DNA of 64,000 nucleotides from Candidatus Saccharibacteria bacterium (GTDB taxonomy: Bacteria > Patescibacteriota > Saccharimonadia > Saccharimonadales > Saccharimonadaceae): assembly GCA_016432585.1 (NCBI GenBank), contig CP066696.1, positions 452,113 to 516,112 on the forward strand, in the 5' to 3' direction. The position numbers and the translations under genes are program-made. Shown here piece after piece: positions 52,145-56,469 of the stretch (position 1 is the first letter of the stretch; every line of letters starts with the position of its first letter). Below the pieces are notes generated by a model. It made no database searches. It was not told the origin of the DNA and saw nothing but the letters and a program-made list of their open reading frames with translations.

Positions 52145-52981
52145 ATGTGGGACGAGCTGGTTCATCGGTGGCTAAAAATACCGTACACATTGAACGTGCG
52201 CGTCGACCAGCGCGTTAAAAAACCGCGCGCAACCATATTATTTATTCACGGCATAGGCAACAGTGGCGAGGCATGGAACGATGTCGTGTCGCGGCTACCA
52301 AGCGATCTACGGGTTATTACCGTAGATCTTTTGGGTTTTGGCAGTTCGCATAGGCCGCCCTGGGCGGTGTATAATGCTCGGTTGCAAGCAAGGTCAGTAA
52401 TTGCGACGTTCTTAAAGTTACGCGTTCATGGGCCAGTTATCATAGTAGGGCATTCGCTGGGGTCGCTGATCGCCGTAGAGATCGCCAAAAAATATCCGCT
52501 GCTCGTACGCTCACTTATTTTGTGCAGCCCGCCGTTTTATAAGGTAGACGAGACAAAGCGTATATTACTACCAAGCAGCGACAAAATCCTGCGCGATATT
52601 TACCGCACTGCGCGCAGGTACCCGGAGCAATTTGTGCAGATTTCGATGCTGGCAGTAAAACTTGGGCTCGTAAACGCCTCGTTTAACCTCAGTAAAGACA
52701 ACGCCGATACCTACATGAACGCGTTAGAATCGAGTATTATTAACCAAACGTCGCTACAAGACGCCACCGGGCTTTCAGTACCGACAAAAATTATTTACGG
52801 CAAGCTCGACCCGGTTGTTGTGGCGCGCAACCTAAAATACCTTGCCAAAGCCAACTCAAATATTACGGTCTCAAGCGTTATTGCCTCGCACGAAATACGT
52901 GGCGCGTTTATTCCGGCTATCACCCACGCGCTAGAAGAGGAAGTAAAAAAGCCTCGCCACACCATAAAAGATATGCTATAG
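52145..52981 (+). CDS. Alpha/beta hydrolase
   Basis: 278 aa. Oxyanion segment LFIHGIGNSGEAWNDVV, DLLGFGSSHRP, nucleophile elbow VGHSLGSLIAVEIA, catalytic Asp in YGKLDPVV and a His in VIASHEIRGA near the C-terminus. A cytosolic esterase/lipase-like enzyme with no signal peptide. No ribosome site is visible, so translation may be coupled to the 66-aa gene. The promoter of the attenuator overlaps its last codons. Confidence 0.83.
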   Translation: MWDELVHRWLKIPYTLNVRVDQRVKKPRATILFIHGIGNSGEAWNDVVSRLPSDLRVITVDLLGFGSSHRPPWAVYNARLQARSVIATFLKLRVHGPVIIVGHSLGSLIAVEIAKKYPLLVRSLILCSPPFYKVDETKRILLPSSDKILRDIYRTARRYPEQFVQISMLAVKLGLVNASFNLSKDNADTYMNALESSIINQTSLQDATGLSVPTKIIYGKLDPVVVARNLKYLAKANSNITVSSVIASHEIRGAFIPAITHALEEEVKKPRHTIKDML

Positions 52982-52982
52982 T
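52974..52982 (+). promoter_or_regulatory. Extended -10 promoter of the aromatic-attenuator transcript
   Basis: TGC-TATAGT, with the leader-peptide ATG 9 bases after it. The leader mRNA would therefore begin at or just before its own start codon. Confidence 0.65.
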
Positions 52983-52991
52983 GACAACACT

Positions 52992-53069
52992 ATGAACATT
53001 CAAACCAATTTCAACAGCAACTATTGGTTTACCGACAGTAATTCTGGCGGTTTGTTCCGTGTTTTTTAA
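52992..53069 (+). CDS. 25-aa aromatic leader peptide (attenuation)
   Basis: A short ORF with Phe7, Tyr11-Trp12-Phe13, Phe22 and Phe25, ending TAA. Six of 25 residues are aromatic and three different aromatic codons (TAT TGG TTT, 53022-53030) are consecutive. The ORF sits on one arm of a hairpin and runs through the antiterminator segment, exactly as needed for ribosome-mediated attenuation by charged tRNA-Tyr, -Trp and -Phe. Confidence 0.75.
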   Translation: MNIQTNFNSNYWFTDSNSGGLFRVF

Positions 53070-53114
53070 CACAATCTAGAAAATATAGAAGAGACCGCCA
53101 GAAGGCGGTTTTTT
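53002..53114 (+). promoter_or_regulatory. Transcription attenuator (leader hairpins, antiterminator, terminator)
   Basis: Four elements are visible. Hairpin A: AAACCAAT (53002-53009) with ATTGGTTT (53023-53030), the second arm being the Trp-Phe codons. Hairpin B: ACCG-A-CAG (53031-53038) with CTG-G-CGGT (53044-53051). Antiterminator: TTCTGGCGGT (53042-53051) with ACCGCCAGAA (53094-53103), a perfect 10 bp. Terminator: ACCGCC (53094-53099) with GGCGGT (53104-53109), AGAA loop and TTTTTT. A ribosome stalled at Tyr-Trp-Phe would cover the 5' arm of B and free the antiterminator; free translation would let the terminator form. Confidence 0.78.
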
Positions 53115-53141
53115 AATATTTTAACGACAAGGAACAATACG

Positions 53142-54086
53142 ATGGCTGAACGAGCCCCTATACAACCAACCACTCACGAGTTAGCGCGCAGGCACCCGCG
53201 CACGCCCGACCACCACGAACTACTACTGCAACAACGTATGCGCGCCGCCGGACTAATAGGCGAGTACAGCACAGGTTTACTTGCCGTGATTGGCCCGTGC
53301 GCCATGACAAATGCCGAGGCGATTATTGCCCACGAATCCCGGCGCCTCACGCAGGTAAGCGCCGAGAATCCTGACCTGCTAGCACTCTACCGTGCGCCCG
53401 TATGGAAGCCACGCACTCGCAAAGAAGATTGGCATGGCCTCGAGACGACCGACCCCGAACTAGCATACCGAATCATGGTAGAACGCTCGCACGACACGGC
53501 GAACATGGCGGTTGAGATAGGCACCGATCCGCGACATCTTAGCCGCTACGGCGATCACACAACACTCGCCTGGAAAGGTGGCCGCAACCACGAAGAACCT
53601 GCTCTCACCGAAGCGTTGGCGCTATACGACCCTACGCTACCTGTAGCGGTAAAGAACGGTCTTGACGGCGATATAGCACCAGCCTTAGCGGATGTTGAGA
53701 TGATAGAGACACTACGCAGAGGTGTCGGCGCAAGGGCTATACTACTGTTCCGCGGCGGATTAAACGCCACAAATCCCGAAGCATGGGAAGAGCAATACTT
53801 GCTTGCCCACGAGGCAACGAACGGACGCTTGCTGGTAGACTGGGCGCACGGTGGCGAACAAGCGCACGATCCGAACGGAAAGTTTGGAAAATCAGTCGAG
53901 GGGCAAATCGAGTGCATGGAACACACGATAGAAATCGCCGAACGCACGGGCAAAGCACCCGCCGGAATATTCGCCGAAGCAAGCAGTGCAGTCAGCCCGA
54001 CCGACCCAGTTATGCCATTTGAAACAGCAGTAGAGGGCGCAATTACCCTCGCAAAAATTAAGCAATCACTCGCAGTGCGAGTATAA
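53142..54086 (+). CDS. DAHP synthase-like enzyme (class I 3-deoxy-7-phosphoheptulonate synthase family)
   Basis: 314 aa, somewhat shorter than AroG (350). In the family this enzyme condenses PEP and erythrose 4-phosphate as the first shikimate step. Matches to AroG: LLAVIGPC with the metal-binding Cys53, WKPRTRKEDWHGL (KPRT), VAVKNGLDGDI (FKNGTDG), LLFRGGLN (ILRGG), VDWAHGG with His236 (DFSHAN) and IFAEAS with Glu279 (MVESH). The metal ligands thus appear kept, but several stretches are divergent, so the sugar substrate may differ. AAGGAA precedes the ATG. It is the first structural gene behind the aromatic attenuator, with a GNAT-like gene next. Confidence 0.72.
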   Translation: MAERAPIQPTTHELARRHPRTPDHHELLLQQRMRAAGLIGEYSTGLLAVIGPCAMTNAEAIIAHESRRLTQVSAENPDLLALYRAPVWKPRTRKEDWHGLETTDPELAYRIMVERSHDTANMAVEIGTDPRHLSRYGDHTTLAWKGGRNHEEPALTEALALYDPTLPVAVKNGLDGDIAPALADVEMIETLRRGVGARAILLFRGGLNATNPEAWEEQYLLAHEATNGRLLVDWAHGGEQAHDPNGKFGKSVEGQIECMEHTIEIAERTGKAPAGIFAEASSAVSPTDPVMPFETAVEGAITLAKIKQSLAVRV

Positions 54087-54097
54087 GGAGAACTACG

Positions 54098-54710
54098 ATG
54101 TCATTTAATTTCGAAAAACCACGCAAACTATCGCAGCAAGACATAGAGGCTGCCGCGCGACTTACGGCCGCCGGGTTTGGCCGCGAGGCCGACGAGCATA
54201 ATTACGCCGACACCCAGGCGCACCTAGAAAGCGCCGACTATTTACAAGTCGTTCGCATGGATAAGGAGCTTGTTGGATTCGCCGCGTACCGGCGATTACT
54301 TTGGCGGACGTGCAGCTGAGCTAGCCGGGATTATTGTGGATCCGAATGTGCAGCAGCATGGAATCGGCACGCATTTGGTGGGCGAGTTTGTGCGCGAGCA
54401 CACGCCCGACCGCCTAACCGCCTACACGCGAAACCCATCGGTACTGCGTGTGCTGGGTAATGTTGGCATGGTAGACGACGTTCTACGGCATAGCGATCCA
54501 GAACGCATTGCGGCCACCCTACAGCACGCCACCGTGCACGACGGAGTCCTTTATCACATAGACCGCTACGCGCCCGATGGCCTTTATGGAACATTCGATC
54601 CTGCTACGCGCCAGTACAACGGCGAGATACTGCAAGAGCGCTGCGTTATGCTAGACAATAAAAACTCGGCGCTTGCGGTAAGCGTTGATTTAACAGGAGG
54701 TGAACGATGA
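54098..54710 (+). pseudogene. GNAT acetyltransferase, split by a frameshift
   Basis: Two overlapping frames together form one GNAT protein. The first (to 54319) gives LSQQDIEAAARLTAAGFGRE ... LVGFAAY, the second (to 54710) resumes with GDYFGGRAAELAGIIVDPNV and the acetyl-CoA loop QQHGIGTHLVGEF. Joining needs a +1 shift at about 54287-54292. AAGGAG precedes the first ATG, and the last codons overlap the next gene's start (ATGA). It could be a recent pseudogene, a sequencing error or, less likely, recoding. Confidence 0.7.
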
Positions 54711-55417
54711 AAATTCTACTTTTAGGCTCGCAACACGGCAACGAACTGCTGGGCGAAAAACTGTACGCACATATTAAAAATAAACGCACGGAACTTTTGC
54801 CGTACATAACGCACAAAAACGCCAATCTACGGGCGCGCAGGCAAAATGTGCGCTATACAGAATCGGATTTGAATCGCAGCTATAACGGTAAAAACACAAC
54901 CTACGAAGAGCGCAGAGCGACGGCAATTTTGCGCTATATACAGCAGCAAGATTTCGACCTTGTACTTGATTTACATACCACTACCTGCAAGCAAGTGCCA
55001 TGCCTTATTGCCCCTGGCATCACGCCCGATTTGCAGCGATTTATGCGCGCCAGTTCTATCGAAACGGTTGTAGAAATGAGCCACGATATCGTAAAAACAT
55101 CGCTTATCGGCGTCCATAGCAAAAGCATTTCGGTAGAAGTAAATAGAAACGAAATTACGACCGATTTACTCGAGCAACTTTGCGATGATCTGCTGCGTTT
55201 TATACAAAATAAAGCGCACGATTTACCCAAAAAAGTATACAAAATTGACGACCTTTTACGCAAAAAATCAATCACTAGCGAACAAGCAAAAACGCTCAAA
55301 AACTTCGAGTACAGTCCACTCGGCTTTTACCCCGTACTAGTAGGCGAAAACTCATATAAAAAACAGACAGACTATCTGGGCTTTAAAGCGTACAAGGTAC
55401 GCGTTTGTAAGGTATAA
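54707..55417 (+). CDS. Succinylglutamate desuccinylase/aspartoacylase (M14-like) family protein
   Basis: 236 aa. Zinc carboxypeptidase-like fold that hydrolyses N-acyl amino acids in the family. Ligands GSQHGNE (His10, Glu13) and LVLDLHTTT (His90); substrate-binding DLNRSYNG at 54-61; an acidic residue in ISVEVNRNE fits the general base. The C-terminal segment FEYSPLGFYPVLVGENSYKK is also family-like. Overlaps the GNAT gene by 4 bases, so the pair may add and remove an acyl group from the same kind of compound. Confidence 0.75.
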   Translation: MKILLLGSQHGNELLGEKLYAHIKNKRTELLPYITHKNANLRARRQNVRYTESDLNRSYNGKNTTYEERRATAILRYIQQQDFDLVLDLHTTTCKQVPCLIAPGITPDLQRFMRASSIETVVEMSHDIVKTSLIGVHSKSISVEVNRNEITTDLLEQLCDDLLRFIQNKAHDLPKKVYKIDDLLRKKSITSEQAKTLKNFEYSPLGFYPVLVGENSYKKQTDYLGFKAYKVRVCKV

Positions 55418-55428
55418 TAAGGATAGCT

Positions 55429-56469
55429 ATGACAAAACCAACTATTCTTACCGGCCTTCGCGCCAACAACGACCTCACGATAGGTAACTATTTTGGCGCA
55501 ATGTTGCCAATGATCGACATGGCCAAGCAAAAATCGGCCGATTATCAAATCAACATGTTTATTCCTGATTTGCATAGTTTTACAACACCGATTGACCATG
55601 CGCAGCTATACGACCAAATCCTACACAACGCGCGACTATTCGTTGCCGCCGGCCTGCCACTAAACAACGACAGCATCTACCTGTACCGCCAAAGCTACAT
55701 TTCAGCCCACAGCGAGCTAACGTGGATTTTGGATTGCTTTACAGGATTCGGCGAGATGGGACGCATGATCCAATTTAAAGACAAGTCCGCTTCGATTGGC
55801 GCAGATCGTACGAGCGTTGGCTTATTCAACTACCCAGTGCTTATGGCGGCCGACATACTGCTTTACAACGCCGAGTACGTTCCAGTAGGGGACGATCAAA
55901 GCCAGCATGTCGAATTCACCCGCGATATTGGCGAGCGCATGAACGCTCGTTTTGGCGATATCTTTACGGTGCCAAAACCCGTAAAAGAGCAGCACGCATT
56001 TTTTGGCAAAGACCAGGGACTTCGCATTAAAGATTTGGTAACGCCAACCAAAAAAATGAGCAAAAGCGACGATTCAGGCAAGGGCGTTATCTTTTTGGGT
56101 GACGAACCAAGCGAAGCTGCTAAAAAAATCATGTCGGCAACGACAGATGACTTAGCCGAGATTCATTTTGACCGCGAAAAGCAGCCAGGCATTAGCAACC
56201 TGCTAGAGATTTTGTCGCTACTGCGCGGCCAGCCGCTTACCGAAACTATTGCAGAGTTCGAGGGTCAAACTCGCTACGGCGACTTTAAAAAGGTCGTCGC
56301 AAACGAAATGGAAGCGTTCCTAGCGGAGTTCCAAACCCGTCTAGCAGCAATAAACGACGCCGAGCTTTTGCAAAAGCTTGAAGCATCGGAACGTACACTT
56401 ACAACAACCGCAAATGCAACCCTTCTTCGCGCCCAACAAGCCGTCGGCTTGCGCCCGAAAGAGGTCTAA
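55429..56469 (+). CDS. trpS: Tryptophanyl-tRNA synthetase
   Basis: 346 aa, class I. LTIGNYFGAM carries the TIGN form of the HIGH motif known from Bacillus-type TrpRS, FTGFGEMGRMIQFKDKSA and VPVGDDQSQHVEFTRDI are diagnostic and KKMSKSDDSGKG is the KMSKS loop. It is 11 bases from the upstream gene with no terminator between, so it can be read from the aromatic attenuator; a TATAAT (55413-55418) also lies 10 bases before its ATG. Confidence 0.96.
   Translation: MTKPTILTGLRANNDLTIGNYFGAMLPMIDMAKQKSADYQINMFIPDLHSFTTPIDHAQLYDQILHNARLFVAAGLPLNNDSIYLYRQSYISAHSELTWILDCFTGFGEMGRMIQFKDKSASIGADRTSVGLFNYPVLMAADILLYNAEYVPVGDDQSQHVEFTRDIGERMNARFGDIFTVPKPVKEQHAFFGKDQGLRIKDLVTPTKKMSKSDDSGKGVIFLGDEPSEAAKKIMSATTDDLAEIHFDREKQPGISNLLEILSLLRGQPLTETIAEFEGQTRYGDFKKVVANEMEAFLAEFQTRLAAINDAELLQKLEASERTLTTTANATLLRAQQAVGLRPKEV

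Follow-up and report, generated by a model that had tools for sequence, protein, structure and literature searches.

A predicted ribosome-mediated attenuator with aromatic codons upstream of DAHP synthase and trpS in Saccharibacteria

Results

Leader region and gene cluster

The window analyzed here is a 64-kb part of a single-contig genome of 952,504 bases (G000), and all of its features described below lie on the plus strand. Its nearest named relatives by trpS are Candidatus Saccharibacteria, and it is accordingly assigned to that group. A leader open reading frame (ORF; 52992-53069) was read directly from an ATG at 52992-52994 to a TAA at 53067-53069; it encodes the 25-residue peptide MNIQTNFNSNYWFTDSNSGGLFRVF and has no Shine-Dalgarno sequence. 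The consecutive Tyr-Trp-Phe codons reported for this ORF by the first-pass annotation were correct to the base (TAT at 53022-53024, TGG at 53025-53027, and TTT at 53028-53030), and this stretch (53022-53030), which is conserved across the family, constitutes the proposed ribosome stall site. ACCG (53031-53034) and CGGT (53048-53051) close the putative protector hairpin of segments 1 and 2 (53031-53051), which is supported by folding and by an arm-swap test. Segment 2, the 5′ arm of the antiterminator (TTCTGGCGGT, 53042-53051), is the exact reverse complement of segment 3, its 3′ arm (ACCGCCAGAA, 53094-53103); the two make up the perfect 10-bp antiterminator that had been proposed, with support from the sequence and the arm-swap tests and, for segment 3, from folding. 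The sequence ACCGCC (53094-53099) is common to segment 3 and to the 5′ arm of an intrinsic terminator (segments 3 and 4 plus T-run, 53094-53114), which reads ACCGCC-AGAA-GGCGGT-T6, with GGCGGT at 53104-53109 and the T-run at 53109-53114. This terminator, identified by a terminator scan and by folding, lies between the leader ORF and the first structural gene. Terminator-like sites in the region were more frequent than expected by chance (10 found versus 5.5 ± 2.3).

The first gene after the terminator (53142-54086) encodes a diverged type I DAHP synthase (DAHPS), matched by PF00793 with 36.5 bits (cutoff, 25.5), while NCBIfam models matched it far below their cutoffs. When it was aligned with more ordinary relatives, the GPC, KPRT, and KNG motifs and the H, E, and D residues of later motifs were invariant, and the enzyme is therefore probably active. 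It is followed by a GNAT-like gene, identified by eye, in two overlapping frames (54098-54710, comprising 54098-54319 and 54270-54710), then by a succinylglutamate desuccinylase/aspartoacylase-like (AspA-like) gene (54707-55417; PF24827, 59.7 bits) and by trpS, encoding tryptophanyl-tRNA synthetase (55429-56469; TIGR00233, 270 bits, and synteny). The four genes lie on one strand with gaps of less than 20 nucleotides (nt). In the window and in genome G036 (L116/L048), the break between the two GNAT-like frames falls at an identical position (FAAYRR... and then ...AELAGIIVDP), which possibly reflects a programmed frameshift or a shared mutation; the 73-amino-acid first part of the gene in the window had no Pfam match. 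A TATAAT-like box stands right before the trpS ATG in the window (55404-55428) and in 75 of 95 loci, a count made without a control set, and it suggests a leaderless basal trpS transcript.

Promoter and start of the leader transcript

A promoter scan of the window predicted a TATAGT −10 box with an extended TG (52977-52982) and a weak −35 box at 52954 (TCGCCA-17-TATAGT, 52954-52982). Transcription would be expected to start at about 52988 to 52990, a few bases from the leader AUG. Matches of comparable grade were not above chance in this region (3 found, 3.0 expected). The family as a whole also agrees with the earlier suggestion that the leader begins at its own transcription start: 93 of 110 elements had a −10 box matching at 4 or more of 6 positions just 5′ of the leader start, typically ending 6 to 10 nt before it, compared to 30 of 114 control positions that reached a 4/6 match. 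A Shine-Dalgarno-like tetramer was found at the leader in only 7 of the 110 elements; AAGGAG-like sites preceded the genes past the terminator in 57 of 70 cases. Because most leaders have an adjacent −10 box and few have a Shine-Dalgarno sequence, the leader message is probably leaderless or nearly so.

Folding and predicted ribosome states

The window RNA folded better than any of 200 dinucleotide shuffles, both for the whole leader (z = −6.1) and for the terminator segment (z = −7.0). Folding also placed the aromatic codons in a predicted hairpin (53002-53009 with 53023-53030), and the second alternative hairpin, the 1:2 pairing (ACCG/CGGT plus CAG/CTG), appeared when the RNA was cut at 53080; both had been anticipated by the first-pass annotation. 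In equilibrium folding of the naked full-length RNA, the antiterminator was the stabler form (terminator probability, 3e-5) and termination without translation was not seen; termination would thus depend on the co-transcriptional order of folding or on a passing ribosome.

To represent the ribosome, RNA covered by a ribosome stalled at Trp or located at the stop codon was removed before folding, with the footprint assumed to reach 13 nt beyond the first nucleotide of the A-site codon. The median terminator probability was 0.14 for the stalled state and 0.95 at the stop codon, and it was 0.94 when the leader arm was shuffled. For the window, the corresponding values were 3e-7 with the ribosome at Trp and 0.95 at the stop. 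These in silico states predict that a stall at Trp selects the antiterminator and that completed translation selects the terminator, even if the stalled-state probability fell below 0.3 in only 60 of 106 elements.

Co-variation of the arms

Base-pair counting on 13 close leaders was uninformative, since their arms were too alike; we therefore used arm-swap permutations and a thinned set, pairing leader arms with their own terminator arms or with those of other genomes (20,000 permutations). Own arms paired better than swapped ones for the antiterminator in all 117 elements taken together (−16.9 versus −14.5 kcal/mol), in 25 elements with divergent arms (−14.6 versus −11.3 kcal/mol), and in the thinned set of 53 elements (−15.3 versus −12.6 kcal/mol), and in each case none of the 20,000 permutations was as good. 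The 1:2 protector arms behaved alike (0/20,000). Matched changes of the two arms included GACGGT/ACCGTC, GGCGAT/GTCGCC, and GGGGGCTT/AAGCCCC. The co-variation across related genomes that had been called for is thus present, and the sequences argue that the antiterminator is mutually exclusive with the terminator and is kept by co-variation.

Distribution across Saccharibacteria

A protein search of the genome contigs returned no DAHPS homologs. Within the family, protein search gave only one distant DAHPS match (L003), itself preceded by an aromatic leader and a terminator, and a Pfam profile search was needed for the rest. Searching 393 genomes of the order with PF00793 yielded 22 matching genomes besides that of the window, whose own diverged gene was not picked up at first by this search. 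We checked these loci for the refuting outcome named in the first-pass annotation, retention of the gene with loss of the aromatic codons or of the antiterminator, and the attenuator passed: in 17 of the 22, a short ORF with many Phe, Tyr, and Trp codons and a terminator are kept directly 5′ of DAHPS. Among the five loci without a leader there, two (L023/L124 and L024/L046) have the element elsewhere in the cluster. Another of the five, L013, with a protein unlike the others and no leader, was judged by eye to be a probable foreign contig and was set aside.

A covariance model (R1) built from 13 related leaders detected about 100 elements at E values below about 1e-4 when run against the 393 genomes; most of these elements came from genomes that PF00793 had not matched. 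The usual layout was rpsI, element, variable gene, trpS. In the 99 elements with trpS downstream, the intervening position was taken by DAHPS in 20, by the AspA-like gene in 5, and by something else in 74, comprising short uncharacterized ORFs, class II DAHPS, prephenate dehydratase, chorismate mutase, a LysE-type amino-acid exporter, and a racemase. When loci were anchored on trpS and chosen regardless of a leader, R1 matched 26 of 69 in Saccharibacteria and 0 of 11 in the outgroup, practically always on the trpS strand. Many trpS genes of the order lack the element, and those inspected among 30 genomes mostly lacking an R1 match mostly had no such leader; one was preceded by a Trp-only variant, MSNNSWQKQKSWRQ. 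The earlier assignment of DAHP synthase as the target therefore holds in part: DAHPS is the first gene in the window, but by gene order the conserved partner of the attenuator is trpS, the fourth gene of the cluster, and DAHPS is just one of the genes that can occupy the first position.

Several further arrangements were observed. About 50 loci (e.g., L031, L039, and L107) carry poorly conserved ORFs of 44 to 112 codons between attenuator and trpS; most have a strong Shine-Dalgarno sequence, and the eight tested had no Pfam match above the cutoff. Two attenuators stand in series before trpS at L083, L077, L085, L070, L060, L097, L124, L101, and L017, and several of the second leaders share a C-terminal motif (TMTWRYC, LSWRYC, LGWRYC). 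At L091 and L093, similar leaders (RSFYIFMHPPCGGLFRVF and GYWFHGYQPLAACSVF) precede a protein of about 350 amino acids, which had no Pfam match at L093, and an M20-type-peptidase-like gene. Phylum-wide, R1 matches outside the order were weak (E of 4e-5 to 1e-3), mostly not convincing, and were not accepted. Two of these weak matches, L143 (G759:C1:362742) and L145 (G757:C15:1781), have aromatic leaders (MNRFYFWFTSHKGRSLTS and NNYFSYFYFSALYGG) and are possible attenuators in other CPR lineages.

Leader codons and downstream genes

In 106 Trp-containing leaders, the residue before Trp was Tyr in 62 and Phe in 31, and the residue after it was Phe in 87 and Tyr in 7. The aromatic codons are thus conserved across relatives as a near-invariant Trp with Phe/Tyr flanks. 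The first-pass annotation had proposed that all three aromatic amino acids are sensed; this holds for Trp and was overstated for Phe and Tyr, which vary in number and order. Since Trp is near-invariant and Phe and Tyr are variable, Trp-tRNA is probably the main signal.

Trp counts from R1 are biased, as most of its training leaders contain Trp. Because R1 includes the codons, we built a codon-blind covariance model (R2) to avoid this bias, with training sequences common to both models. In the trpS set, R2 placed Trp at the expected position in 30 of 32 leaders, compared to 5.1% of random control positions, and at least three aromatic residues were present in 27 of 32 leaders, compared to 1.8% of controls. 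These counts are not independent events, as all the loci share common descent and two of them belong to training genomes.

A more telling test came from elements with other targets, where the leader codons changed along with the amino acid to which the controlled genes relate. The three leaders that precede prephenate dehydratase (pheA) genes were Phe-rich and lacked Trp, and two before prephenate dehydrogenase (tyrA) genes were Tyr-rich and lacked Trp and Phe (STYYVRIYLADYY and SYLVPYY). One of the former is a second attenuator in the window's own genome (L135, G000:C1:370600-376200; about 374806 to 374886, minus strand), where the Phe-rich leader MHYIVSNFFAFTNPS, ended by a stop codon, and a terminator precede a chorismate mutase-prephenate dehydratase gene (pheA) and a class I/II aminotransferase gene. 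Trp occurred in 100 of 103 trpS/DAHPS leaders versus 0 of 5 pheA/tyrA leaders (Fisher p = 5e-7), a contrast that comprises only five pheA/tyrA leaders and is inflated by the Trp bias of R1. Across 38 genomes, leaders upstream of pheA and tyrA were the exception, not the rule.

Discussion

Anatomy, co-variation, codon bias, and genomic context are all present in the sequence and, together with the folding, they support the trp-style attenuation that had been suggested for this locus. We consider the element very likely to be a ribosome-mediated transcription attenuator of the trp/phe/leu-leader type, which would control the cluster from DAHPS to trpS. RNA polymerase would start at or a few bases from the leader AUG, followed by a ribosome. 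When charged tRNA-Trp, and probably also charged tRNA-Tyr and tRNA-Phe, is scarce, the ribosome would stall at Tyr-Trp-Phe and cover segment 1, leaving segment 2 free to pair with segment 3; the polymerase would then read through into the DAHP synthase, GNAT-like, and AspA-like genes and trpS. With plentiful charged tRNA, the ribosome would translate as far as the stop codon immediately after segment 2; the 3:4 terminator would then form, and transcription would end near 53114. From these features we infer that the ribosome stalls, that transcription and translation are coupled, which way the response goes, and that read-through extends to trpS.

How far the regulation extends is the point on which a different reading has some, if limited, plausibility: the attenuator could be real and act on the adjoining gene only (DAHPS here), with trpS as a bystander that uses its own leaderless promoter. 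The TATAAT-like box directly before trpS fits this, and first genes often belong to the aromatic pathway (DAHPS I and II, prephenate dehydratase, chorismate mutase, and TrpE). However, different loci have different first genes, often short ORFs with no Pfam match, whereas trpS is constant, Trp is the near-invariant codon, and the gaps in the cluster of the window are short. Since a TATAAT box frequently accompanies trpS itself, it is uncertain how far the gene depends on read-through, and it may have a basal promoter in addition to the attenuator.

Two other explanations are very improbable. The targets would suit a metabolite-binding riboswitch or a T-box that detects Trp or uncharged tRNA directly and independently of translation, since aminoacyl-tRNA synthetase and aromatic synthesis genes are also T-box targets; yet the conserved part is coding and its codons switch to Phe or Tyr with the target, and no Rfam match at threshold, T-box included, was obtained for the window and 17 related loci, so that both devices were rejected. 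Equally remote is a mere terminator of the upstream gene with a fortuitous leader ORF, which would agree with the position of the element directly after rpsI or an alpha/beta hydrolase gene in many genomes but not with the co-varying competing arm, the Trp codons recovered by the codon-blind model, or the −10 box at the leader start.

The attenuator is of a known kind, and each of its features has a precedent. Attenuation at E. coli trpL-trpEDCBA, pheL-pheA, and pheST relies on leader-peptide stalling and alternative terminator and antiterminator structures (PMC11802643), as is proposed here, and the Phe leader that precedes pheA in the window's genome is a parallel to pheL-pheA. According to PMC11802643, the aroR-aroF attenuator of Corynebacterium glutamicum (Neshat et al. 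2014) likewise uses an aromatic-codon leader (Phe-Tyr-Phe) to control an operon with a DAHP synthase gene; in that description, the quoted motif contains no Trp and no link to trpS is stated. In Sinorhizobium meliloti, an alphaproteobacterium, the leader transcript begins with the trpL ATG, so that this attenuator is also leaderless, but it controls trpE(G) (PMC7298713). The trpL2-trpS attenuator of Streptomyces lividans shares a Trp-containing leader peptide, a leaderless start, and a position upstream of trpS; it differs in having one Trp in 13 residues, no U-run found after the hairpins, and a monocistronic trpS, and it belongs to an actinobacterium (PMC8079986). The leader of the window combines mixed Tyr-Trp-Phe codons with the lack of a Shine-Dalgarno sequence. 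In contrast, E. coli trpL has a Shine-Dalgarno sequence and tandem Trp codons. No Rfam family covers the element: neither Trp_leader nor Phe_leader matched at the gathering threshold (Phe_leader, 16.3 bits versus 55 needed). A search of the open-access literature found nothing relevant on attenuation in Saccharibacteria or Patescibacteria, consistent with the earlier statement that it is apparently undescribed in CPR bacteria; as far as searched, lineage and locus are new.

Among 38 genomes carrying DAHPS, pheA, and tyrA genes (G000 and 37 relatives), only 4 had a match to chorismate synthase (PF01264), and dehydroquinate synthase was above the cutoff in 9. In the window's genome, neither enzyme was detected, though DAHPS and a full-length pheA are present. 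This apparent hole in the shikimate pathway may mean that the enzymes for these steps went undetected or that the genes serve another purpose; it does not affect the attenuator.

On balance, we favor the broader view that Saccharibacteria have an aromatic attenuation regulon on leaderless leaders, with Trp-Phe-Tyr leaders for trpS and DAHPS, Phe leaders for pheA, and Tyr leaders for tyrA, in host-dependent bacteria, most of which have no detectable chorismate synthase. How CPR bacteria regulate their genes is poorly understood. Because attenuation needs a ribosome close behind RNA polymerase, a conserved attenuator is sequence evidence for coupling in Saccharibacteria; if true, such a regulon would mean that transcription and translation are tightly coupled in CPR cells and would open this coupling to tests, with the attenuator giving a codon-level readout for experiments. 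It would also predict that these tiny host-dependent cells sense their supply of aromatic amino acids, presumably set by the host, through tRNA charging.
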